The notes beneath the pieces were generated by a model that saw only the letters and a program-made list of their open reading frames with translations, was not told where the DNA came from and ran no database searches. From NCBI RefSeq assembly GCF_032854445.1, contig NC_088307.1:29416484-29480483 (forward strand): a stretch of 64,000 nt of DNA, in the 5' to 3' direction. Both the position numbers and the translations under genes were made by a program. The stretch comes from Liolophura sinensis. Taxonomy: Eukaryota; Mollusca; Polyplacophora; Chitonida; Chitonidae. Positions 8,573-48,800 of the stretch are shown here, in pieces (position 1 is the first letter of the stretch; each line of letters begins with the position of its first letter).

Positions 8573-11500
8573 CTGCAATGTGTCAGACAAAATGTATAAA
8601 TCAGAAATATCCCTAGGATATTATTTCTTACAACTACTTTCTCACACAATGCTGACTGAAAATCTGTCAGTTCTTTGCCTTACATTCATCTTATGTAGGG
8701 GGACCCGGTTCAAGTCTGGGTCAGGTCCCGAGTCAAGTCTGGGTCAGGTCCCGGGACTTGTTGTTAGAGCTGTTAGAGCAAGGAAACAGGACTGGTTGGC
8801 CCAGTGTCAGTATAATGCATGTGGCTAGGTGGGGTGTCATGTCTGTTGTCTTTGGCATGATATTTCAGTGGCGGCAACACTTTGGTTGCATGGACTTGCC
8901 CTGCCACAAGAAGACACAATATATATACACATACCTAATGACTCCTCATCGTCATAAGACTGAAAAATTGTTAAGTATGACATTAAATCACAAGCATGCA
9001 TGCATACATACATACATACCCACACGCGTACATACATGCATACATACATACATACCCACACGCGTACATACATGCATGCGTACATACATACATGCATTCA
9101 TCTTGCAGATCCACATCCTTTTTTTTCCACATGTAATGGCTTTACTTCTCCTTTCACCATTATTTTTGGAAATGCATCATAACTGTGTCTCCTTACAAAA
9201 GTGTTGTCCAAATTGCAGACAGAGTTTGCTGAGCACTTTAACAACAAGCTTTCCCACTATACTAACTATAGTACATGTACAGACATTTGTAGATACGTAC
9301 CTTAATAAAACAAAACCTTAAATATTTTTCTCCTAAGTCTTTGTTCTCCTTGGAATAAAATGCTGATGGCGGAATGGCAGAGACTTTCTATAACACAAGA
9401 AGTCTTAAAGTAAGTATGATTAAATACCTCAAAAAGGAACTGAATGACATAAACAGAACATCCCAGAAGTGAATCAATTCTTGTTGATGAAGACCAGTGT
9501 TTGGCTCCTTCAATTTGATAGATATAATGCAGAGAAGATAACTGCAGATGTCACTTAGTGACATATGTCACTAGCTCTACAGTAGCACACAGGTAGAGGT
9601 ACACATGCAGGTGACATATGTCATTAGCTCTACACTAGCACACAGGTAGAGGTACACATGCAGGTGGCATATGTCACTAGCTCTACACTAGCACACAGGT
9701 AAAGGTTCACATGCAGGTGACATATGTCACTAGCTCTACACTAGCACACAGGTAGAGGTACACATGCAGGTGGCATATGTCATTAGCTCTACAGTAGCAC
9801 ACAGGTAGAGGTACACATGCAGGTGGCATATGTCATTAGCTCTACAGTAGCACACAGGTAAAGGTACACATGCAGGTGACATATGTCATTAGCTCTACAG
9901 TAGCACACAGGTAGAGGTACACATGCAGGTGACATATGTCACTAGCTCTACACTAGCACACAGGTAAAGGTACACATGCAGGTGACATATGTCACTAGCT
10001 CTACACTAGCACACAGGTAGAGGTACACATGCAGGTGGCATATGTCACTAGCTCTACACTAGCACACAGGTAAAGGTACACATGCAGGTGACATATGTCA
10101 TTAGCTCTACACTAGCACACAGGTAGAGGTACACATGCAGGTGACATATGTCATTAGCTCTACTGTAGCACACAGGTAAAGGTACACATGCAGGTGGCAT
10201 ATGTCACTAGCTCTACAGTAGCACACACGCAGAGGTACACATGCAGGTGGCATATGTTACTAGCTCTACACTAACACACTGGTAACGGTACACATGCAGG
10301 TGACATATGTCACTAGCTCTACTGTAGCACACAGGTAAAGGTACACATGCAGGTGACATATGTCACTAGCTCTACAGCACCACACAGGTAAAGGTACACA
10401 TGCAGGTGACATATGTCACTAGCTCTACAGCAGCACACAGGTAAAGGTACACATGCAGGTGACATATGTCACTAGCTCTACACTAGCACACAGGTAAAGG
10501 TACACATGCAGGTGACATATGTCACTAGCTCTACACTAGCACACAGGTAAAGGTACACATGCAGGTGACATATGTCACTAGCTCTACAGTAGCACACAGG
10601 TAAAGGTACACATGCAGGTGACATATGTCACTAGCTCTACAGCAGCACACAGGTAAAGGTACACATGCAGGTGACATATGTCACTAGCTCTACACTAGCA
10701 CACAGGTAAAAGTACACATGCAGGTGATATATGTCACTAGTTCTACAGTAGCACACAGGTAAAAGTACACATGCAGGTGACATATGTCATTAGCTCTACA
10801 CTAGCACACAGGTAAAGGTACACATGCAGGTGACATATGTCATTAGCTCTACACTAGCACACAGGTAGAGGTGCACATGCAGGTGATATATGTCACTAGT
10901 TCTACAGTAGCACACAGGTAAAAGTACACATGCAGGTGACATATGTCACTAGCTCTACACTAACACACCGGTAAAGGTACACATGCAGGTGACATATGTC
11001 ACTAGCTCTACAGTAGCACACAGGTAAAGGTACACATGCAGGTGACATGTGTCGCTAGTTCTACAGTAGCACACAGGTAAAGGTACACATGCAGGTGGCA
11101 TATGTCATTAGCTCTACACTAGCACACAGGTAACGGTACACATGCAGGTGACATATGTCACTAGCTCTACAGTAGCACACAGGTAAAGGTACACATGCAG
11201 GTGACACATGTCACTAGCTCTACAGTAGCACACAGGTAAAGGTACACATGCAGGTGACACATGTCACTAGCTCTACACTAGGACACAGGTAAAGGTTCAC
11301 ATGCAGGTGACACATGTCACTAGCTCTACACTAGCACACAGGTAAAGGTACACATGCAGGTGACATATGTCATTAGCTCTACACTAGCACACAGGTAGAG
11401 GTACACATGCAGGTGACATATGTCATTAGCTCTACTGTAGCACACAGGTAAAGGTACACATGCAGGTGACACATGTCACTAGCTCTACACTAGGACACAG

Positions 11501-14500
11501 GTAAAGGTACACATGCAGGTGACATATGTCACTAGCTCTACAGCAGCACACAGGTAAAGGTACACATGCAGGTGACATATGTCACTAGCTCTACACTAGG
11601 ACACAGGTAAAGGTACACATGCAGGTGACATATGTCACTAGCTCTACACTAGGACACAGGTAAAGGTACACATGCAGGTGACACATGTCACTAGCTCTAC
11701 ACTAGGACACAGGTAAAGGTACACATGCAGGTGACATATGTCACTAGCTCTACACTAGGACACAGGTAAAGGTACACATGCAGGTGACATATGTCACTAG
11801 CTCTACACTAGGACACAGGTAAAGGTACACATGCAGGTGACATATGTCACTAGCTCTACACTAGGACACAGGTAAAGGTACACATGCAGGTGACATATGT
11901 CACTAGCTCTACACTAGGACACAGGTAAAGGTACACATGCAGGTGACACATGTCACTAGCTCTACACTAGGACACAGGTAAAGGTACACATGCAGGTGAC
12001 ATATGTCACTAGCTCTACAGCAGCATACAGGTAAAGAGATATTCACTACAACATAAATACATGTATTGATTTATTCGATAGGAGTTTTATGCTGTTCTCA
12101 AGAATATTTCAGAAGACAGTGGTCAGCATTATGGTTGGAGGAAATGGTGTAACTTCTGACAAACATCAATGTCTGAACTATACTCCTGCTAAAACTATAC
12201 TCTTGCATCACCTTTTCTTTTGTCATCCAACGGACAAATTTGAAGTCTGCCGGATCTGAGGTGCCATCATCTGGTACTGAAATATCTGCAAGAGAAAAGA
12301 AAAAAGAGGGAAACAAGTGACCTAACACCAATGCAGAAGAAGACAGAAACAAGTGCAACAACAACATCACTTTTTCTATTTATTTACTGATTTGATTGGT
12401 GTTTTACGCTGTACTTCATAATATTTCAATTTTTCGACAGCCGAAATTCTGTCATGCTAACCACCTCAGCCACGGAGACCCCACCATCACTTTGCCTGGA
12501 TTTGACTGACATCTTAAGCCTGAATGTACTGAATGAAAAATGTACAGCTCTCCACACTAAACAGGACTCACTCATGTTAGAGTAGTCTGCCATGATGAAG
12601 TATGACCCCTGGGGCACCGTGGGCACCATCCCCAACTGCTCTAACAGGTCAACCAGTGCGTCTCGCTTAGGCTGGATCTCCCGCGCCAGAGACTGGAGGT
12701 AACACTCAGGGCTTCCAAACAGAGACATTTCCCTCTCCAGCCCCTCTGCCACAGCTTCCTGGAAAGTGGTTATTCAGTCATTTTTATTTGTTATTTATTC
12801 GTCTGATTGATCTTTAGCATCATACTTAAGAAATTTTTCACTTTTACATCAAGTCACTTTTATAGGTAAAGAACAATGAATAGCCTGGGGTAATCCACCA
12901 ACCTTTGGCAACTATGCAAGTCACTGATGAACAGTCTCACGTGTGACATACACATATGCACACCATACTGGTAAAAGGTAAACACTCTGATAACACAAGT
13001 ACTTGTGTAAACACAAATAAAGGTCTGTAGAGGCTCTGAGTTTACCTGTACAGGTGCAGGACAATTAAAGGTAAAGTTTCGATGGATGGTCTGTACGACG
13101 TGCAGTAGAGGCTCTGAGCTTACCTGTAGAGGTGCTGGACAGGTAAAGGAAGCTATTATGCACGGTGTGTAGTGTGCACTGGAGACTCTCAGCTTATCTG
13201 TAGAGGTGCTGGACAGGAAAAGGTAGAGTTTTGATGCATGCTATGTAAGATGTACAGTAGAGGCTCTGAGTTTACCTATAGAGGTGATGGACAGGTAAAG
13301 GTAGAGTTTTGATGCATGGTCTGTAGAGGCTCTGAGCTTACCTGTAGAGGTGCTGGACAGGTAAAGGTAGTTTTTATGCATGGTCTGTAGTATGCACTGG
13401 AGACTCTGAGCTTATCTGTAAAGGTGCTGGACAGGAAAAGGTAGTTTTGATAGATGGTCTGTAGGACGGGCAGTAGAGGCTCTGAGTTTACCTGTACAGG
13501 TGCTGGACAGGTAAATCTAGAGTTTTGATGTATGGTCTTGAGAGCGTGCACTAGAGGCTCTGAGCTTACCTGTACAGGTGCAAAATTACAAGTAAAGGTA
13601 GTTTTTATGCATGGTCTGTAGTGGAAAGTCTGAGCTTATCTGTAGAGGTGCTGGACAGGAAAAGGTAGTTTTGATGGATGGTCTGTAGGACATGCAGTAG
13701 AGGCTCTGAGTTTACCTGTACAGGTGCTGGACAGGTAAAGGTAGAGTTTAGATGGATGGTCAGTAGGACATGCAGTAGAGGCTCTGAGCTTACCTGTAGA
13801 TGTGCTGGACAGGTAAAGGTAGTTTTCATGCATGGTCTTGACAGCCTGCATTAGAGGCTCTAGAGGCTCTGGGCTTACCTGTAGATGTACTGGACAGGTA
13901 AAGGTAGAGTTTTGATGCACGGTCTGTAGAGGCTCTGAGCTAACCTGTAAATGTGCTGAACAGGTAAAGGTAGAGTTTTGATGCATGGTCTTGAGAGCGT
14001 GCACTAGAGGCTCGGAGCTTACCTGTAGAGGTGCTGGACAGGTAAAGGTAGAGTTTTGATGCATCCTCTGTAGATGCTCTGGGCTTACCTGTAGAGATGC
14101 TGGACAGGAAAAGGTAGAGTTTTGATGCATGCTATGTAAAGGGTGCAGTAGAGGCTCTGAGCCTACCTGTAGATGTGCTGGACAGGTAAAGGTAGTTTTT
14201 ATGCACGGTCTGTAGAAGCTCTGAGCTTACCTGTAGAGGTGCTGGACAGGTTAAGGTAGAGTTTTGATGCATGGTCTGTAGGACGTGCAGTAGGGGATCT
14301 GGGCTTACCTGTAGAGGTGCTGGACGGGTAAAGGTAGAGTTTTCAAGCATGGTCTGTAGAGGCTCTGAGCTTACCTGTAAATGTGTTGGACAGGTAAAGC
14401 TAGAGTTTTCATGCATGGTCTTGAGAGCGTGCACTAGAGGCTCTGGGCTTACCTGTACAGGTGCTGGACAGGTAAAGGTAGAGTTTTCATGCATGGTCTT

Positions 14501-17500
14501 GAGAGCGTGCAGTAGAGGCTCTGGGCTTACCTGTACAGGTGCTGGACAGGTAAAGGTAGAGATCTGATGGATGGTCTGTAGGATGTGCAATAGAGGCTCT
14601 GGGCTTACCTGTACAGGTGCTGTCCAGCACCTGTACTGTAAATGTGCTGGACAGGTAAAGGTAGAGTTTTGATGCATGGTCTTGACAGCATGCACTAGAG
14701 GCTCTGGGCTTACCTGTAGAGGTGCTGGACAGGAAAAGGTAGAGTTTTGATGCATGCTATGTAAAGGGTGCAGTACAGGCTCTGAGCTCACCTGTAGAGG
14801 TGCTGGACAGGTAAATGTAGTTTTGATGCACGTCTGTACTGTGCACTGGAGACTCTGAGCTTATCTGCAGAGGTGCTGGACAGGAAAAGGTAGAGTTTTG
14901 ATGCATGCCATGTAAAGGGTGCAGTAGATGCTCTGAGCTTAGCTGTGGAGGTGTAGGAGAGGTAAAGGTAGAGTTTTGATGCATGCTATGTAAAGGGTGC
15001 AGTAGAGGCTCTGAGCTTACCTGTGGAGGTGTAGGAGAGGTAAAGGTAGAGTTTTGATGCATGCTATGTAAAGGGTGCAGTAGAGGCTCTGAGCTTACCT
15101 GTAGAGGTGCTGGACAGGTAAATGTAGTTTTGATGCACGGTCTGTACTGTGCACTGGAGACTCTGAGCTTATCTGCAGAGGTGCTGGACAGGAAAAGGTA
15201 GAGTTTTGATGCATGCTATGCAAAGGTGCAGTAGAGGCTCTGAGCTTACCTGTGGAGGTGTAGGAGAGGTAAAGGTAGAGTTTTGATGCATGCTATGTAA
15301 AGGGTGCAGAAGAGGCTCTGAGCTCACCTGTAGAGGTGTAGGACAGGTAAAGGTACAGTTCTGATGCATGGTCTGCAGAGCGTGCACTAGAGGCTCTGGA
15401 CCCACAGCCCAGCCTAGCTTCCAGCCCGTCACGCTGAATGTCTTCCCAGCACTTCCAATTGTCACTGTTCTCTCCCACATGCCAGGAAGGGAGGCTAAGT
15501 AGAACATAATTTATTTAAATGACTGACAGACTGGTTAACTACTTACCCCAAACTGTAATATTACTCTGAGAACACCCAAGACAACATTTGTATGTAGTGT
15601 TTCCTCAGTGATGCATGGAGACATGACACCATGGGACCACAATAAATACATCCAGCCACCTTACGAAACATGTAAAGGGCCTCCGGACATACGTGCAGAT
15701 GGTTTCTCCCAGGCTCTGCCCGGTTTCTTCCCACCTGCCGTTGTATAAGTGAAATATTCTTGAATCCAGTATAAAACACCAATTAAATAAATAAATACAA
15801 CACATGTAGGAAGACATCCCCATCGAAGGTAATCAATGAGCAAAGATAAAGGTAAGTAACAGTTAAAATTTCTGATGCAGAACACGTGTAAATTCCTGGT
15901 CATTAAACTTAAATTTTAGTGTCAGACTAATAGTGGCTAAACACAGACTAACTTACCTATCTTGATGCTAACTTACCTATACTGATACTAACTTATCTAT
16001 CTTGATCTGTTTACTACCAGCAAACACAAGATAAGTCACCTATCTTGACATGTTTACTACCTATCTTGTTATGTTTACTACCAGTAACCACAAGCTAACT
16101 CAGCTATCTTGATATGTTTACTACCCATAAACACAAACTAACTCAGCTATCTTGATAAGTTTACTACCTATCTTGTTATGTTTACTACCAGTAACCACAA
16201 GCTAACTCAGCTATCTTGATATGTTTACTACCCATAAACACAAACTAACTCAGCTATCTTGATAAGTTTACTACCCGTAAACACAAACTAACTCAGCTAT
16301 CTTGATAAAGTTTGCTACCCTAAATTTGATAAGTTTCTTCCACCTTTTCGCAAGGTTTTATACTATACCATATTCCATGGCATTTTTCTGTGTAGACTGA
16401 TTACATTTTGCTTACTGCGAAGCCCTGAAACGGGCCAATCAAATCAATGTAAAGATGTGCATAAATTGCACTGAAAATTGCTTTAGCTTTTGTATACGAA
16501 AAAGGTGAGGAATTAAGGTACTAGTAAACACAAGCTAACTTACCTATCTTGATATGTTTACTGCCATTAAACACCAGCCACTCATATACTTCATCTGCCA
16601 CACAGATGGTATCATTTTCTATGCACAGATTAGCTATCATTTCCAGCTCTTCTTGTGAAAATACCTGAAAAGGTAGATCACTACAAGTGTATTCCAATGC
16701 AGCAAGCTACCATCATTTACAGTAAACACTATTCAGATTAATTCTCATCACTAAACAAGATTATCACACTAACATTTACCAAGAGTTCAGGTGAACGCAA
16801 TATTTTACCCCAACAAATTAATTTATTTGAAATGCGTAAAAAGGTTATTAGCAGCAGTGTGGTGAGTATAAACCATGAGGGGGAATCTTCATGGGGTTTT
16901 GATGATAGGTACGTGGTTGTCATGACAACTGCACGAGTGAACAAACGTGTCCACCAAAAATGAAAACTTTATGTGGAAAACAACTGGAGTTGTAGCCCGG
17001 ACACGAAATCATATCTGTTTAAATATTATATACTTGGAAAATGGCTATCTGGTTACCATGACAACCGCAAAAATGGACAGGTGTGTTGCGACACATCATC
17101 ATCTGTGTAGTTATATATCCACCAAATATTAAAACTCTATATGGAAAACAGTTGGCGTTTGTTGGCCCGGACACAAATCATATCTATTTATATTGAATAC
17201 ATGGGGAACTGGCGATGTTGTAACCATGACAACTGCGGAACTGACAAGCATGAGTCGCGACACATCAACATCTGTGTATGTATGTATTCACTAAAAGGTA
17301 AAACTCTCAATGGAAAACAATTGGAGATATTGCCCAGACTCGAATACGGATGGACAGGCAGACAGACAGGCAAAAATCATATACAATAATATACAATACG
17401 CTTGGCCTAAATGGTTGCATTCCTTTTGCACACATATACAGCACATCACTTACTTTTCCTAATGGGTTGCTTGGAGTGTTCAGAATGAAAGCTTTTGTCT

Positions 17501-20500
17501 TGGCTGTGAATTTACTTCTCAGTTCTTCAGGGTCCAGTTTCCAGTCAGCACTTGAGAGCCTGCTTCCACTCTTTGTCTAACTCTTTGTCTACAAACACAT
17601 GTGCAATTTTGGTCTAACATTGACTGACTATAAGCACTATTCAAGAAAACAAATGTTGAAAATTTAGAAACCTTGTAGATGTACAAAAGGCCTGGATTTG
17701 AGAAAATAGCTGGTGAGCAGTTTACCATTCTCATTCATACCATGTTAGGTGAGCACTACGCCAGCAAATCAAACATACTGTACCATAAAACTATCTCATG
17801 TTGAGTTCCCTCTAAATTGGACTTTAAATTTATTTTGCATTCCGTTCGCATGGGCAGAGTTAGCTGGTTTAACTTGTGAAAGTGGCTTTGAGCCAGTGGC
17901 TTCAATTTAAACCAGTTCAGATCTGATCTGGTTTAAATTTTGGCCATGTGAACGTGGCCTCTGGCGGGAAACACCATTCTGTGCATGTGTGAAGGAGAGT
18001 TTTAGGGTCTCTGGCGGGTAACACCATTCTGTGCATGTGTGAAGGAGAGTTTTAGGGTCCCTGGCGGTTAACACCATTCTGTGCATGTGTGAAGGAGCGT
18101 TTTAGGGTCTCTGGAGGGTAAGAACATTCTGTGCATGTGTGAAGGAGAGTTTTAGGGTCTCTGGCGGTTAACACCATTCTGTGCATGTGTGAAAGAGAGT
18201 TTTAGGGTCTCTGGCGGGTAACACCATTCTGTGCATGTGCGAAGGAGAGTTTTAGGGTCTCTGGAGGGTAAGAACATTCTGTGCATGTGTGAAGGAGAGT
18301 TTTAGGGTCTCTGGCGGTTAACACCATTCTGTGGCATGTGTGAAGGAGAGTTTTAGGGTCTCTGGCGGTTAACACCATTCTGTGCATGTGTGAAGGAGAG
18401 TTTTAGGGTCTCTGGCGGGTAACACCATTCTGTGCATGTTTGAAGGAGCGTTTTAGGGTCTCTGGCGGGTCACACCATTCTGTGCATGTGTGAAGGAGAG
18501 TTTTAGGGTCTCTGGCGGGTAACACCATTCTGTGCATGTGCGAAGGAGAGTTTTAGGGTCTCTGGCGGGTAACACCATTCTGTGCATGTGTGAAGGAGAG
18601 TTTTAGGGTCTCTGGAGGGTAAGAACATTCTGTGCATGTGTGAAGGAGAGTTTTAGGGTCTCTGGCAGTTAACACCATTCTGTGCATGTGTGAAGGAGAG
18701 TTTTAGGGTCTCTGGCGGGTAACACCATTCTGTGCATGTGTGAAGGAGGGTTTTAGGGTCTCTGGCGGGTAACACCATTCTGTGCATGTGTGAAGGAGAG
18801 TTTTAGGGTCTCTGGCGGGTAACACCATTCTGTGCATGTGCGAAGGAGAGTTTTAGGGTCTCTGGCGGGTAACACCATTCTGTGCATGTGTGAAGGAGAG
18901 TTTTAAGGTCTCTGGCGGGTCACACCATTCTTTGCATGTGTGAAGGAGAGTTTTAGGGTCTCTGGCAGGTAACACCATTCTGTGCATGTGTGAAGGAGAG
19001 TTTTAGGGTCTCTGGCGGGTAACACCATTCTGTGCATGTGTGAAGGAGAGTTTTAGGGTCTCTGGCAGGTAACACCATTCTGTGCACGTGTGAAGGAGAG
19101 TTTTAGGGTCTCTGACGGGTAACACCATTCTGTGCATGTGTGAAGGAGTTTTACAGCCTCCACGGAGTAACGACATTCTGGAAATAAAGTTTATCAATGA
19201 ATCAATCAGTTACGGGATTAGTCCATAGTCTTTGGCTGATTACATACATGTAGATGCTCTACCCACCCTGCCACAACTAGGCAGTTTACTTTGTCAAGAG
19301 AAACATAAAACTCTCTATTAAAGAGATACAGGGGGCCTCTGTGGCTCAGTTGGTTAGCGCGTTGCAATTAAGGAAATGCAGAAAAACACAAAATGTGAGA
19401 CAGAAGTTCGATCCGTGGTCTGTTACCCAATGAAAATACACAGTTCTGCAATATCTGGCTATCCTTTGCATTCATGTTGTGGCAATGAAACGCTTCATGT
19501 AGGTGAATACAGGTCAGACAATATTTACCTCCAGGCACTAAAGAACTGATGGTCCTACCACAGACAAGCCAGACAATACTACCTCCAGCCACCGAACAAC
19601 TGATGGTCCTACCACAGACAGGCCACACAATATTACCTCCAGGCATTGAAGAAGTGATGGTCCTACCACAGACAGGCCAGACAATATTTACCTCCAGGCA
19701 CTGAAGAACTGATGGTCCTACCACAGACAGGCCAGACAATATTACCTCCAGGCACTGAAGAACTGATGGTCCTACCACAGACAGGCCAGACAATATTTAC
19801 CTCCAGGCACTGAAGAAATGATGGTCCTACCACAGGACAGGCCAGACAATATTACCTCCAGGCACTGAAGAACTGATGGTCCTACCACAGACAGGCCACA
19901 CAATATTACCTCCAGGCACTGAAGAACTGATGGCCCTACCACAGACAGGCCAGACAATATTTACCTCCAGGCACTGAAGAAGTGATGGTCCTACCACAGA
20001 CAAGCCAGACAATACTACCTCCAGCCACCGAACAACTGATGGTCCTACCACATACAGGCCACACAATATTACCTCCAGGCATTGAAGAAGTGATGGTCCT
20101 ACCACATACAGGCCACACAATATTACCTCCAGGCACTGAAGAACTGATGGTCCTACCACAGACAGGCCAGACAATATTTACCTCCAGGGACTGAAGAACT
20201 GATGGCCCTACCATAAACAGGCCACACAATATTACATCCCGACACTGAAGAACTGATGGCAGTACCACAGACAGGCCAGACAATATTTACCTCCAGGCAC
20301 TGAAGAACTGATGGTCCTACCACAGACAGGCCACACAATATTACCTTCAGGCACTGAAGAACTGATGGTCCTACCACAGACAGGCCACACAATATTACCT
20401 CCAGGCACTGAAGAACTGATGGTCCTACCACAGACAGGCCACACAATATTTACCTCCAGGCACTGAAGAACTGATGGTCCTACCACATACAGGCCACACA

Positions 20501-23500: not shown

Positions 23501-26500
23501 TTATGTGCATACAGGTGGCCTGATTTATGTGCACACAGGTGGCCTGATTTATGTGCACTATGCCCAGCTTTCATGTTTAAATCAAAGACCAAAGCACTGC
23601 TACGCAACTGTCATGAGAACCCCTCCCCCTCCACTTAAATTTTACAGGTAGGAAAATCCAAACCCTAAAATGCATGCAAGCATATATAGTTTTGATGCCT
23701 TAACTATTAATTATTAAAACTTTGTCTTGTCATGCTACAAAAGTTATTTACTTCTTTATCTGATTCATGTTTTACACTGTACCCAAGAATATTTCACTTA
23801 TACGACGGCTACCACCACTGCAGTGGAAAGAAACCTGGCAGAGCCTGGGGGAAACCCAAAACCATCCACAGGTAACTGGCAAACCTTCCCCTGTACAACC
23901 GGAAATCACAGCGACTACACTAGTGAGAGACTCCTGAGGCAACGATAACCACCATACACCACAAAGACTCCCTAACCACTATGGGCCACAGAGGCCCCGC
24001 CCCCCCACCCCCCAACCACTACTGGCCACGATTAGACACTTGACTGGCCCCACTATAGGCCATGCAGGCCCCACTAACCACTATAGGCCGCCGGGACTCC
24101 CGTAGCTACTTTAGGTCCCACAGGCCCCCTTAACCACCACAGCCCACAATGAGAAACTCGACAAGCCCCTTAACCCCCCCCCCCCCCCCCCCCCACTATA
24201 GGCCACGCTGGCCCCTCAAACAATATACGCTATGATTAGGCACTCGACAGGCCCCCCTAATCACTATAGACCATGCATGCCTCACTAACCACTATAGGCC
24301 ACTGAAAGTTCCCTAACTGCTATAGGTCACGTACGCAGGCCTCCTCCACTATAGGTCACGCAGGCCCACCTAACCACTATAGGCCACAGAGGCCAACCTA
24401 ACCACTGTTTGCCACGCGAAGGCCCTGCCTACCACCATTGGGCACAAGTAGGCGCTCGACAAGCCCCCCTAACCACTATAGGCCACTGAGACTCCCCTAA
24501 TCGCTATAGGTCACGCAGGATTCCTTAACCACTATAGGCCATGAAGGCCCCCCTCATGCTATAAAATCAGAAAGCACCAATAACCAAAAGTGTCTTCTTT
24601 TTTTTTCAAATTCAAGACTATTCATACTACTTACGCCTACTTGTGAATACAACACGGCCACGTAAAACATCAGGGTGCTGGCCCACAGTAAATCATTGGC
24701 CTTTGACACAAACTTTTCAACATGCGAAATTTTCAACTTCAGTGCAAATTTAAGCCCATACGCATCTTACATGTATATTGACGATATTCTATGAGCTTCA
24801 TGTAAAAGCCTAACGAGAGGTGTTGACCACGTATTACCACCAAGTCTTGTACATGTCTAGTCACCAGGTGTTGACCACGTATTACCACCAAGTCTTGTAC
24901 ATGTCTAGTCACCAGGTGTTGACCACGTATTACCGCCAAGTCTTGTACATGTCTAGTCACCAGGTGTTGACCACGTATTACCGCCAAGTCTTGTACATGT
25001 CTAGTCACCAGGTGTTGACCACATATTACCGCCAAGTCTTGTACATGTCTAGTCACCAGGTGTTGACCATGTATTACCACCAAGTCTTGTACATGTCTAG
25101 TCACCAGGTGTTGACCACGTATTACCACCAAGTCTTGTAAAAGTATAGTCACCAGGTGTTGACCACATATTACCACCAAGTCTTGTACATGTAGTCACCA
25201 GGTGTTGACCATGTATTACCACCAAGTCTTGTACATGTCTAGTCACCAGGTGTTGACCACGTATTACCACCAAGTCTTGTACATGTATAGTCACCAGATG
25301 TTGACCACTTATTACCACAAAGTCTTGTAAATGTATAGTCACCAGGTGTTGACCATGTATTACCACCAAGTCTTGTACATGTCTAGTCACCAGGTGTTGA
25401 CCACGTATTACCGCCAAGTCTTGTACATGTCTAGTCACCAGGTGTTGACCATGTATTACCGCCAAGTCTTGTACATGTCTAGTCACCAGATGTTGACCAC
25501 GTATTACCACCAAGTCTTGTACATGTCTAGTCACCAGGTGTTGACCACGTATTACCACCAAGTCTTGTACATGTATAATCACCAGGTGTTGACCATTTAT
25601 TACCACAAAGTCTTGTAAATGTATAGTCACCAGGTGTTGACCACGTATTACCGCCAAGTCTTGTACATGTCTAGTCACCAGGTGTTGACCACGTATTACC
25701 GCCAAGTCTTGTACATGTATAGTCACCAGGTGTTGACCACGTATTACCGCCAAGTCTTGTACATGTCTAGTCACCAGGTGTTGACCACGTATTACCACCA
25801 AGTCTTGTACATGTCTAGTCACCAGGTGTTGACCACGTATTACCACCAAGTCTTGTACATGTATAGTCACCAGATGTTGACCACGTATTACCACCAAGTC
25901 TTGTACATGTCTAGTCACCAGGTGTTGACCACGTATTACCACCAAGTCTTGTACATGTATAGTCACCAGGTGTTGACCACGTATTACCACCAAGTCTTGT
26001 ACATGTCTAGTCACCAGGTGTTGACCACGTGTTACCACCAAGTCTTGTACATGTATAGTCACCAGGTGTTGACCACGTGTTACCACCAAGCCTTGTACAT
26101 GTATAGTCACCTGGTGTTGACCACGTATTACCACCAAGTCTTGTACATGTATAGTCACCAGGTGTTGACCAGGTATTACCACCAAGTCTTGTACATGTCT
26201 AGTCACCAGGTGTGGACCATGTATTACCACCAAGTCTTGTACATGTCTAGTCACCAGGTGTTGACCACGTATTACCACCAAGTCTTGTACATGTATAGTC
26301 ACCAGACGTTGATCACGTATTACCACCAAGTCTTGTACATGTCTAGTCACCAGGTGTTGACCATGTATTACCACCAAGTCTTGTACATGTATAGTCAACT
26401 GGTGTTGACCACTTATTACCACCGAAGAGCCTTGTACATATATAGTCACCAGGTGTTGACCACGTATTACCACCAAGTCTTGTACATGTCTAGTCACCAG

Positions 26501-29500
26501 GTGTGGACCACGTATTACCACCAAGTCTTGTACATGTATAGTCACCAGGTGTGGACCACTTATTACCACCAAGTCTTGTACATGTATAGTCACCAGATGT
26601 TGATCACGTATTACCACCGAAGAGCCTTGTACATGTATAGTCACCAGGTGTTGACCACGTATTACCACCAAGTCTTGTACATGTCTAGTCACCAGGTGTG
26701 GACCATGTATTACCACCAAGTCTTGTACATGTCTAGTCACCAGGTGTTGACCACTTATTACCACCAAGTCTTGTACATGTCTAGTCACCAGGTGTTGACC
26801 ACATATTACCACCAAGTCTTGTACATGTATAGTCACCAGGCATTGACCACTTATTACCACCAAGTCTTGTACATGTCTAGTCACCAGGTGTTGACCACGT
26901 ATTACCACCAAGTCTTGTACATGTATAATCACCAGGTGTTGACCATGTATTACCACCAAGTCTTGTACATGTCTAGTCACCAGGTGTTGACCATGTATTA
27001 CCACCAAGTCTTGTACATGTCTAGTCACCAGGTGTTGACCACTTATTACCACCAAGTCTTGTACATGTATAGTCACCAGGTTTTGACCACGTATTACCAC
27101 CAAGTCTTGTACATGTCTAGTCACCAGGTTTTGACCACTTATTACCACAGAAGAGCCTTGTACATGTATAGTCACCAGGTGTTGACCACTTATTACCACA
27201 GAAGAGTCTTGTACATGTATAGTCACCAGATCTTGACCACTTATTACCACAGAAGAGCCTTGTACATGTATAGTCACCAGGTGTTGACCACTTATTACCA
27301 CAGAAGAGTCTTGTACATGTATAGTCACCAGGTGTTGACCACTTATTACCACCAAGTCTTGTACATGTCTAGTCACCAGGTGTTGACCACTTATTACCAC
27401 AGAAGAGCCTTGTACATGTATAGTCACCAGGTGTTGACCACTTATTACCACCTATGAGTCTTGTACATGTACAGTCACCAGATGTTGACCACTTATTACC
27501 ACAGAAGAGTCTTGTACATGTCTAGTCACCAGGTGTTGACCACTTATTACCACCGAAGAGTCTTGTAAATGTACAGTCACCAGGTGTTCACCACTGATTA
27601 CCACAGAAGAGTCTTGTACATGCATAGTCCCCACAAGGAAACTCTAACACTTTTTACAGTACACGCAAAGCAAACTCTGCAATTCTGAACAGTTAAGGTG
27701 GAGGAAACTGAAAACGTTTGTATAATGCAGGCAGAGGGTGCAGTAGAATCCACTTCAGGTGTGCCTCGGTGACTAAATGACAAGCATCTTAACCACCTAG
27801 CTAACAACCTGACCCTGACATCAACACAGACAACCTTAACAACCTTATCATCCAAGCCAGTTTGACCAATGGAGAGAAACTATGGGACATAATGAACATG
27901 TACCTGTATGTACCTGTATGTACCCATTCATAGTGTTGGAACGATGCCATAGCTACACTGAACCTATCCTCTTTAGTCATGTGACAAAAATAATGGAGGT
28001 GAAATTAAACAGAATTTAACCCAGGCGAGCTAGACATTGAATAAGATAATCTAATGTACCTAACTTTCAAATATAATAGTGTCATTGATCTGTAGTTCTT
28101 TAAACTTTTGAAATCAGCAAAACTCAGCATTTCACCCATTTACACCCATGCTATTTATGACTTCCTGGTCCTGGTGAGGAACACGGATGTTCAAAACTAT
28201 GAAATGTACTTAATGATTGTTTGTTACCTGTCCCAGGTTGATTGCTTTATGCTCTGTTGCCAAGCGGCCAAACTCCACCCTAAAACACAAGGATATTTAT
28301 AAGGCATTCACAAGACCACTGGCTCTAAATCTGGGGTCAGTGTCATGACGCACACTTAGCCCAGTACTGCCTTTAACTGCCATGACAACATATGTTGCAA
28401 ACATATAACATACACACAGCTATGGGCTTTCTATATTGCTAACACTAGAAGAGCTTTATAAAATGAGCTCCGAGCTACTTAATGATCAACTGACTATAAG
28501 CAATATTCATAAATCCAAATAACCATTTATACAGAAACACATGTGATGAAAGGAAAACAACAAGATGATCTAAAATTAAAACACTGTTTCACTGAAGGTA
28601 TAGCATGTACAAAAGAGGAGAAAATGCATGTATAATAGCTGGGATTCCAGCAACTGAAGGTACAGTACATACGAAAAAGGAGAAAATTCATGTGTAATAG
28701 CAGGGATTCCAGCAAATGAAGGTACAGTACGTACAAAAAAGGAGAAAATTCATGTGTAATAGCAGGGATTCCAGCAACTGAAGGTACAGTACATACGAAA
28801 AAGGAGAAAATTCATGTGTAATAGCAGGGATTCCAGCAAATGAAGGTACAGTACGTACGAAAAAGGAGAAAATTCATGCGTAATAGCTGGGATTCCAGCA
28901 ACTGAAGGTACAGTACATACGAAAAAGGAGAAAATTCATGCGTAATAGCTGGGATTCCAGCAACTGAAGGTACAGTACATACGAAAAAGGAGAAAATTCA
29001 TGCGTAATAGCTGGGATTCCAGCAACTGAAGGTACAGTACATACGAAAAAGGAGAAAATTCATGTGTAATAGCAGGGATTCCAGCAAATGAAGGTACAGT
29101 ACATACGAAAAAGGAGAAAATTCATGTGTAATAGCAGGGATTCCAGCAAATGAAGGTACAGCACGTACGAAAAAGGAGAAAATTCATGTGTAATAGCAGG
29201 GATTCCAGCAAATGAAGGTACAGTACATACGAAAAAGGAGAAAATTCATGTCTAATAGCAGGGATTCCAGCAAATGAAGGTACAGCACGTACGAAAAAGG
29301 AGAAAATTCATGCGTAATAGCTGGGATTCCAGCAACTGAAGGTACAGTACATACGAAAAAGGAGAAAATTCATGTGTAATAGCAGGGATTCCAGCAAATG
29401 AAGGTACAGTACATACGAAAAAGGAGAAAATTCATGTGTAATAGCTGGGATTCCAGCAACTGAAGGTACAGTACATACGAAAAAGGAGAAAATTCATGTG

Positions 29501-45800: not shown

Positions 45801-48800
45801 TCCACATGTATGTTTTCTGAGATTTCAGTACAGATTGTTTCACACAAAGCACATTGTATTTAGTTATGATTAGCAAAATTATGCTTGTGTTAGGGACATC
45901 AGATGCTAACGAAGCCTGGAATTGTCCAGAAGAAGGCTTAATTAGTAGTAGACCTGTGAAAAACTCCACATGTGTAAAACTATATTTCAAGAAAAACCAA
46001 AGCAATAAATACTCTTAAAAGTGAGATGTAGCAGAGCCTGTTCCCAGCAACTCAGATTTCTCAAATTTATTGAGACATATTTTCACTATCATTGGCAAAG
46101 TGTGAAAATGGTCTCCTTTTGGCATTGTTTTTAGAAGGAAAAAATATTCAACAAAACTCAGGTTTAGCAGATCAAATGGCCCACATGTAACGCTGCACTG
46201 AGAAACCCAGCTTGCTGATCAAAGTGCATGTCTTCTGCTGTGCTGCCATCTCCGCCCAATTCACCATGCTGCATGTATCCAGATCATGGCATAATGTTGC
46301 TTTCACAGAACTGGGTAAATCATTTCTTCCTGACCTAAAAATAATGTTGAATACCCTGTGGCAGTCTATCTATAAATGTAATTTAGTGGGGGGAAAAAGG
46401 AAACGATGTCGTAAAATCTTGCGAGAAAATTGATTTGCAAAGTTTCATGAAAGTGTTCTCTTGGACATGAATGCCATTTTGCTCTTTATAAAGAATAGCT
46501 GGTCATTCAGGCTTGGCTGAATGAACCATTGGGCACCTTTTAACCTTATCATCGTTCAGGGCTTTCAAGAAAGAGCAAGATGCAAGGCTGCAGACAGCTA
46601 TCTTTGTAACCACCTACTTTTTGTACTGTAACCAGGCATATAACAATTTAACAATCATATCAAAAAGATACTTAAATTCGTTTCAGCCTTATTTTCCTCC
46701 TCCTGCGTTTTAATCTTGACCTAATTCTCATTGAAAACACTGATCAGTATTATAGAGCTTATTTGTCTTGAAGATGTCGTGGAGCAAATCTTGAAATATC
46801 ACTCCCACGTTCTGTTTTAATCAATAACATAAATTCTTGTCTCACCCATTCTGTTTAATCTATCACATAAATTCTTGTCATCACAGCCATTGTTATAATC
46901 TATCACAAAAGTTTTTGTCATCGCTCCCAGTGTTACAATCTATCATATACATGTAAATTCTTGTCGTCTCACCCACTGTTAAAATTTATCACATAAATTC
47001 TTTGTCATCTTTGCCACTGTTAAAATCTGTCGCACAAATTCTTGTCATCTTTGCCATTGTTAAAATCCCTGTCACATAAATTCTTGTCATCTTTGCCATT
47101 GTTAAAATCTATCACATAAATTCTGGTCATCTTTGCCATTGTTAAAATCTATCACATAAATTCTGGTCATCTTTGCCATTGTTAAAATCTATCACATAAA
47201 TTCTTTGTCATCTTTGCCACTGTTAAAATCTGTCGCATAAATTCTGGTCATCTTTGCCATTGTTAAAATCTATCACATAAATTCTTTGTCATCTTTGCCA
47301 CTGTTAAAATCTGTAACATAAATTCTTGTCATCTTTGCCATTGTTAAAATCTGTCACATAAATTCGTGTCATCTTTGCCATTGTTAAAACCTATCACATA
47401 AATTCTTGTCTTCTTTGCCATTGTTAAAATCTATCACATAAATTCTTTGCCGTCTTTGCCATTGTTAAAATCTATTGCATGAATTCTTGTGTCGTCTCAC
47501 CCATTCTAGTTAATCTGTCACATAACCGTTTGTGTCATCAAGACAATTGATATGATCCATCACATAAATTGAGAGTGAGGCTCAGTTGTGGTCCTAGAAT
47601 AGACCCAGTTACACATACTCCTAGTTCAGATGATTTTTTGACATGCTGGTGTCAGGAGAAATTTAGATGAAAATGATTTTCTCCCAGGGGTTCTGCTGTT
47701 CAGCCTCTGCTTGAGACTGTAGGGGGAGGGAAACAGAACATCTGTCTAGCCTCTTATGTGTGTGTCATTGGTTAACTCAAGAGTATTTTACCTTAATACT
47801 CTCCAGTAAGAGTCATTCTCATGTATTACCTTGAGTAAACCACCTATGGCAAATAACTGACAAACTTCCCCTCTTAGAGGTATGAGGGACAGATTTGCAC
47901 CTACAATACAATCTCAATTTCTGTGCCATCTTGGTGGATAACATACGATAAACGTCTACGTTGTATATGTGGTCACTTCATATTAAGGCTGGATAGATGG
48001 GACATGGTGTACAATGTGCTGTACTGAAAGACCTCATAATTTCTAGATCATTGTACATAATGTTATACTTTTACTCATTTCTCTATTCCCATTAACATTT
48101 TGCTCACCAGTATTGTAGTTTTCACTAAAGCGATGTTGACTTTTTCAGAGTGTCCGTATGTGCCATTACCTAATGACAATCAGTTTTTGCAGAGGATGAT
48201 GAATCTGCGGTTTATTGTCAGTCCAGTGCTTGGCTTTTGATTTTTTTTTTTCAGAGGAACCATAACCTTGTGCTCAGTATTTTAGAATATTCATTTCTCT
48301 CATTCAGTATCTCGCATTCATTATTTCAGAGTACTCATGTTTTCATGTCTGTCATACAAATATTTCATATGCCATTTGAAGACATCTTGCCACAAGACAT
48401 CTGACTGTTAAACTGACTGTCCTCCTGATAACTATGATAACACGGTGTTGTCATTGTCCATTATTAGGTCACCCTCTCAACCTTGCCTTTGGTGTCTGTG
48501 TGTACATTTGAAATGGTGTTGGGTGACTTCATGTACTTGTACATTTGAAATAGTGTGTAATGACTTCATGTACATTTGAAATGGTTTGTGGCAAGATGGT
48601 GTGCATGCACGTGGATGTGGAGGGTATGACGTGTACATGGATGAGTACGGTAGGACGTGTTACATACATGTACATGGATGAGGACGGTATGACGTGTTAC
48701 GTACGTGTACATGGATGAGGACGGTAGGACGTGTTACATACATGTACATGGATGAGGACGGTAGGACGTGTTACATACATGTACATGGATGAGGATGGTA

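Follow-up and report, generated by a model that had tools for sequence, protein, structure and literature searches.

Tandem copies of an exon-intron boundary in a kynurenine aminotransferase gene of the chiton Liolophura sinensis

Most studies of splice donor choice involve one or two competitors. How the right site is found when tens of near-copies of it lie side by side is the question raised by a kynurenine aminotransferase gene encoded on the minus strand of a 64-kb window of Liolophura sinensis DNA ("the window" being the whole stretch analysed). Intron 8 of this gene begins with a minisatellite made of about 30 copies of the end of exon 8 together with its donor. An enzyme gene that looks essential is in this way provided with up to 18 decoys of authentic-donor sequence quality within 2.3 kb. 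As 18 decoys equal the authentic site, sequence quality alone cannot explain a correct choice, to which position and exon context must contribute. Arrays of exon ends are a natural test of how cells choose the right splice site.

Anatomy and origin of the exon 8 array

The boundaries of the copies were set by wraparound alignment of the array to the exon tail. The unit extends across the exon-intron boundary and includes the splice site: of its 78 bases, the first 71 are the end of exon 8 and the other seven are intronic (GTGAGCT). On the minus strand, the 71 repeated exon bases that form the seed, or unit 0, are located at 15398-15328, and the authentic donor CAG|GTGAGC at 15330-15322, with the first intron base at 15327. 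Thirty full tandem copies follow (15327-13046), then a partial copy 31 of 28 bases at the distal end of the array (13045-13018) and the 259 remaining bases of intron 8 with the acceptor TTTCCAG (13017-12759). The array (15327-13018) takes up 2310 of the 2569 bases of the intron. A preliminary description of this DNA had reported about 30 copies of the exon 8 end and donor starting at 15327, which the alignment confirms. It had placed the array limit at 13027, where the array in fact extends to 13018, and had given copy 1 a peptide ending in FTCP, which is not how this copy translates.

With 30 full copies of 64-105 bases, the array is a tandem repeat of minisatellite unit size. Exactly half of the full copies (15/30) measure 78 bases, 20 have a length that is a multiple of three and all 30 terminate in AG. 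They share 80-95% identity with the exon tail over aligned bases (mean 86%) and 76-100% with one another (mean 87%). Over their aligned bases, copies 3 and 7 are identical, and likewise copies 4 and 5. Whether exon and array resemble each other more than by chance had been proposed as a test in the preliminary description. The local alignment scores of the exon tail against the copies range from 42 to 97 (median 80), while the best of 30 copies never exceeded 34 for any of 1000 dinucleotide shuffles of the tail. When the assembly (609,464,459 bases, 632 contigs) was searched with the DNA of exon 8, 21 places were found, all at its own locus, the best array copy having an E-value of 1.6e-17 among the matches listed. 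The array is found at one place in the assembly.

Exon 8 (15494-15328, minus strand) is 167 bases long, ends in phase 0 and contains a conserved GSAGKTFS stretch whose lysine we take to be the pyridoxal phosphate (PLP) lysine. Exons are numbered as in the preliminary description; exons 3-10 were placed and exons 1-2 were not located. All 54 codons of exon 8 align end to end with kynurenine aminotransferases of solved structure (best E 1.8e-25). The joined exons 3-10 encode 336 residues, which match kynurenine-oxoglutarate transaminase 3, also of solved structure, over their full length (E 4.6e-136). In this alignment the exon 8-9 junction, made with the first donor, is free of gaps. Exon 8 is thus genuine.

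The direction of seeding follows from conservation. Exon 8 is supported as the source of the array, since its repeated part encodes residues that are conserved among distant homologues, presumably the enzymes of human, mouse and mosquito. The proposal of a seeding by the exon-intron boundary is upheld on this ground, and the opposite order, array first and exon second, is ruled out by the same conservation. In the array itself the coding constraint is no longer visible: differences between the exon and 15 copies of 78 bases amount to 0.177, 0.119 and 0.181 at codon positions 1, 2 and 3, and the lack of a third-position excess indicates that no coding function has maintained the copies.

We propose that a tandem duplication of 71 exon bases and the first seven intron bases would have started a minisatellite at the intron's own 5' boundary. 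Slippage or unequal exchange, from which we infer its growth, would then have expanded it to about 30 copies, in part blockwise. These processes, already invoked in the preliminary description, fit the block similarity of the array, since a duplication of blocks is expected to leave identical pairs such as copies 3/7 and 4/5. The copy continuous with the remainder of exon 8 would have remained the functional exon end, whereas the later copies, lying behind the first donor, would be removed with the intron and hence drift. Growth on the donor side would keep the first donor in place, and the array would be tolerated for this reason. The AG|GT at copy boundaries may add to this tolerance, as splicing within the array could restore the same junction, an idea drawn from the AGGT-duplication model of intron gain, in the form outlined in the available passages of its description (PMC3443670). 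The array would then be one outcome of a frequent, genome-wide tandem duplication that is thinned by selection at splice sites. It is likely that tandem duplication of a general kind explains the array, the copy next to the exon remaining functional, and that no mechanism aimed at splice sites is needed.

Structures of this type were already known. Tandem repeats across exon-intron boundaries have been named mirages in amphioxus (PMC3087553, PMC3902484), where the available passages report them for Adh3, the globins BflGb6 and BflGb9, PGBD5 and troponin C and describe them as unstable in length between alleles. By the anatomy read from its sequence, the exon 8 array is a mirage. The amphioxus mirages belong to a cephalochordate and contain 3-7 copies in the cases described, whereas the present array belongs to a mollusc, contains about 30 copies and is known from sequence alone. 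Cephalochordate occurrence, a part of the mirage as described, does not hold for a chiton host; it is a descriptive trait and does not define the structure. The Rogers model, in which introns are gained by tandem duplication of AGGT segments (PMC3443670), has in common with the array the AG|GT copy boundaries that make each copy a potential GT-AG intron, at least as the model is presented in the passages available. The chiton segment differs in that a functional donor was present in it before it was duplicated, and a new intron is not demonstrated. In human genes of segmental duplications, variable internal tandem repeats at exon-intron boundaries can alter splicing, according to the accessible part of one report (PMC2812944). 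The location at exon-intron boundaries is shared with the chiton array. However, the human genes are paralogs in recent segmental duplications and their transcripts are described, whereas the search of the chiton genome with the exon 8 protein gave 21 places among the matches listed, every one at its own locus.

No mirage of a mollusc was found in the open-access literature searched, which is weak evidence of absence. The available passages of a cone snail gene-structure paper mention introns with simple microsatellites only (PMC3862624), and those of an earthworm paper are limited to minisatellites within introns and to exon copies that are not transcribed (PMC12783039). The terms minisatellite, satellite and tandem repeat are not mentioned in a chiton genome comparison (PMC12005716). 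The new elements are the mollusc host, the copy number of about 30 and the estimate of frequency given below.

Decoy donors and the probable use of the first donor

Among the 30 donor positions repeated in copies 2-31, 24 have retained a GT (25 of 31 if the authentic donor is counted), in agreement with the earlier count of about 24 in about 30. The GT is preceded by AG in all 24 decoys. Eighteen of the 30 decoys equal the authentic CAG|GTGAGC, matching the consensus at 8/9 positions, with a predicted U1 pairing within 0.3 kcal/mol. The dozens of competing donors announced in the preliminary description thereby stand as potential competitors only, of which 18 are on a par with the authentic one by consensus match and by predicted U1 pairing. 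If upstream copies were retained, only donor 2, located after copy 1, would leave an open frame, with 26 additional residues. Copy 2 has 77 bases and a stop follows, so the other 23 GT decoys lead to stops.

No sign of a selection keeping or removing the decoys was detected, either in substitution rates or among arrays. Mismatches at the donor positions of the 30 decoys (0.152 per base) are about as frequent as in the neighbouring positions (0.131). In a comparison of 11 arrays, in which the exon 7 row has its donor 3 bases off and the C12:686729 row includes off-register matches, only one decoy surpassed the authentic donor in strength. As a strong site that changes at random would give the same result, no conclusion on selection can be drawn from the rarity of stronger decoys.

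Splicing most likely proceeds from the authentic donor and removes the array with the intron, as suggested by the intact protein and by analogy with amphioxus, where mirages leave regular splicing undisturbed in the reverse transcription PCR assays of the passages available (PMC3087553). The intact frame read through the first donor is compatible with an equally undisturbed regular splicing in the chiton. It is unlikely that the decoys are used to a measurable extent. They could serve in a stepwise removal of 78-nucleotide GT-AG segments, i.e. recursive splicing at AG|GT, or donor 2 could sometimes be used, adding its 26 residues; other donors would yield stop-bearing transcripts and lower the output of the gene. 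The AG found before all 24 GT decoys, the 18 decoys as good as the authentic donor by both measures (consensus match, predicted U1 pairing), and the open frame at donor 2 would favor such a use, as would the role of duplicated AGGT segments as a recognised route to new introns in the available text (PMC3443670). Nevertheless, these are candidate donors read from the DNA, those past the second give stops when upstream copies are retained, and the decoys are no better kept than adjacent bases. Comparable amphioxus arrays also splice normally in the cases accessible (PMC3087553).

Recurrence across the genome and the question of targeting

A reading of the exon 8 array as a singular event is not supported. 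A second boundary array is located in intron 7 of the same gene (16324-15947, minus strand), with a 43-base unit derived from the exon 7 end and donor. The exon 7 end matches this array with 87.5% identity over 56 bases (E 2.2e-14). Its 11 repeated donor positions comprise five GT, five CT and one AT, about half having lost the GT. When 25 arrays of the window were compared with the rest of it, only those at 13018-15327 and 15947-16324 resembled the end of an identified exon, the kynurenine aminotransferase gene being the only one annotated, so that exons of other genes could be missed. Arrays of this kind also occur in 14 of 180 exons sampled elsewhere in the genome, and they are known in amphioxus from the cases available (PMC3087553).

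For this survey, all 100 myosin head and ABC transporter exon matches and 80 of the 132 kinesin matches (the first 80 rows without internal stop) were fetched with their flanks. They represent about 68 gene loci by rough grouping. Splice sites were assigned using motif and by eye. Self-similarity overlapping the coding match was detected in 13 exons (10/100 and 3/80), two of which were dropped: at C1:26642195 the copy lies 484 bases off and is not tandem, and at C12:28200112 the array begins within the intron and does not include the donor. Three others were found by tandem-repeat detection only (C1:26644459, C2:5378501 and C9:5672128). Tandem copies spanning a splice site were retained for 14 of the 180 exons, 10 at the donor and four at the acceptor, with a nominal 95% interval of 4.3-12.7%, exons within one gene not being independent. 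Twelve of the 14 have at least three copies and two have two copies. The difference between donor and acceptor sides is not significant (p 0.18).

Both sides are illustrated by long arrays. A 31-base unit is repeated 18 times on the donor side at C12:684214. At the myosin exon C3:25740887 (stretch C3:25740437-25741831), a donor-spanning 124-base unit is present in at least seven copies with 98% identity and continues beyond the fetched end; from this sequence the array looks recent. On the acceptor side, a 32-base unit is repeated 14 times upstream of the myosin exon C2:5378501 (stretch C2:5378051-5380194), each unit repeating the acceptor and nine exon bases. Splice-site-spanning minisatellites are probably spread over the whole genome of this chiton and still arising, some being nearly identical to their source. 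The structure described in amphioxus is hereby extended to a mollusc, in donor and acceptor versions and with copy numbers to about 30. If the sample is representative, thousands of exons would adjoin tandem decoy donors or acceptors, and the genome would be a standing experiment in splice-site choice as well as feedstock for new introns. Two questions become accessible with the survey: the frequency with which such duplications are tolerated, and whether intron gain draws on them.

Recurrence could also mean that a mechanism linked, for instance, to transcription or to RNA directs duplication to exon-intron boundaries, in keeping with the 14 affected exons of 180. This is quite improbable given the distribution of arrays in general. 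In two samples, tandem arrays cover 15.3% and 7.9% of the intron bases that lie 100 bases or more away from any splice site. They span 6/94 and 2/72 predicted donors, 2/91 and 1/74 predicted acceptors, and 2/86 and 0/67 exon midpoints. The deficit at splice sites gives one-sided binomial p-values of 0.007 and 0.07 for donors and of 4e-5 and 0.02 for acceptors. With three sites missed by tandem-repeat detection, the counts become 10/166 donors and 4/165 acceptors, still below the introns. Arrays being rarer at splice sites than in introns, splice sites appear to be avoided, not sought. Additionally, the AG|GT context is not significantly enriched (8/10 versus 97/156, p 0.33).

Several points weigh against general tandem duplication as the full account. 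The use of the first donor is a probable one, deduced from the DNA and the encoded protein. The splice sites of the survey are predictions made with a frequency table. Genome-wide, the donor consensus CAGGTRAG occurs in tandem triplets 3496 times for 59903 single occurrences (5.8%), against 599/23644, 493/28545 and 458/23824 for three control 8-mers (1.7-2.5%; 599 is the count of the reversed pattern), these triplet counts overlapping within arrays. Per occurrence, the donor consensus is thus 2.3-3.4 times commoner in tandem triplets than the controls, which would fit some donor bias and, with it, targeting. Taken as proof of many such arrays, the 3496 against 599 was not borne out by the flanks of 10 arrays. 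Among these 10, which hold the first 100 donor-pattern matches, none had a confirmed exon at its head, and three reading frames from their flanks gave no Pfam family. The genome-wide pattern lends weak support to recurrence.

At one further locus, C1:3805400-3807200, an open frame extends up to CAG|GCGAGT, and the array behind it carries CAG|GTAAGT; this may be a GC donor next to GT decoys. We take the open frame to be polycystin-like; Pfam gave no match.

It is very improbable that the exon 8 array is an assembly artefact. Tandem arrays misassemble easily, and one amphioxus case was misassembled in the draft according to the passages available (PMC3087553). However, the available description of the chiton assembly reports HiFi reads of 8,347 bases on average, longer than the 2.3-kb array, at 14X coverage (PMC11068029); the species owes its present name, Liolophura sinensis, to a published correction (PMC12441733). 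The copies also differ from one another (76-100% pairwise identity, mean 87%), and the second and further arrays are independent. Least credible is a coding function of the array, with translation into a repetitive peptide: 78 is divisible by three and the exon's frame continues into copy 1, but only 20 of the 30 copies have lengths that are multiples of three, stops occur from copy 3 onward, changes show no third-position excess and relatives of solved structure align across the junction without insertion.

Other exons and arrays of the window

The other exons of the gene were placed on the minus strand at 23274-23176 (exon 3), 21714-21565 (exon 4), 20993-20907 (exon 5), 17576-17454 (exon 6), 16664-16544 (exon 7, donor AAGATAG|GTAAGT), 12758-12572 (exon 9) and 12285-12212 (exon 10). 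In an aminotransferase family search of the genome, 9 of 33 candidates were scored, the kynurenine aminotransferase gene not being among them; paralogs may exist.

Among the remaining arrays of the window, those at 48632, 56341 and 59906 were codon-like by eye, but no exon was found for them. A 48-base unit repeated 58 times (24818-27633) leaves frames open on both strands (784 and 612 codons), as expected because the unit length is divisible by three. The intron after exon 10 contains a 53-base unit repeated 47 times (9558-12036), which includes the near-palindrome GTGACATATGTCAC and has no match to exons of the same gene. Two stretches of the minus strand, around 15790-15700 and 12490-12450, may resemble the molluscan V-SINE sequence. 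Finally, the acceptor of exon 6, the start of which was picked using frame and similarity, carries a 12-base direct repeat, ACAAAGAGTTAG then ACAAAGAG (around 17565-17590, minus strand). It duplicates the AG and is possibly an incipient acceptor-side duplication.

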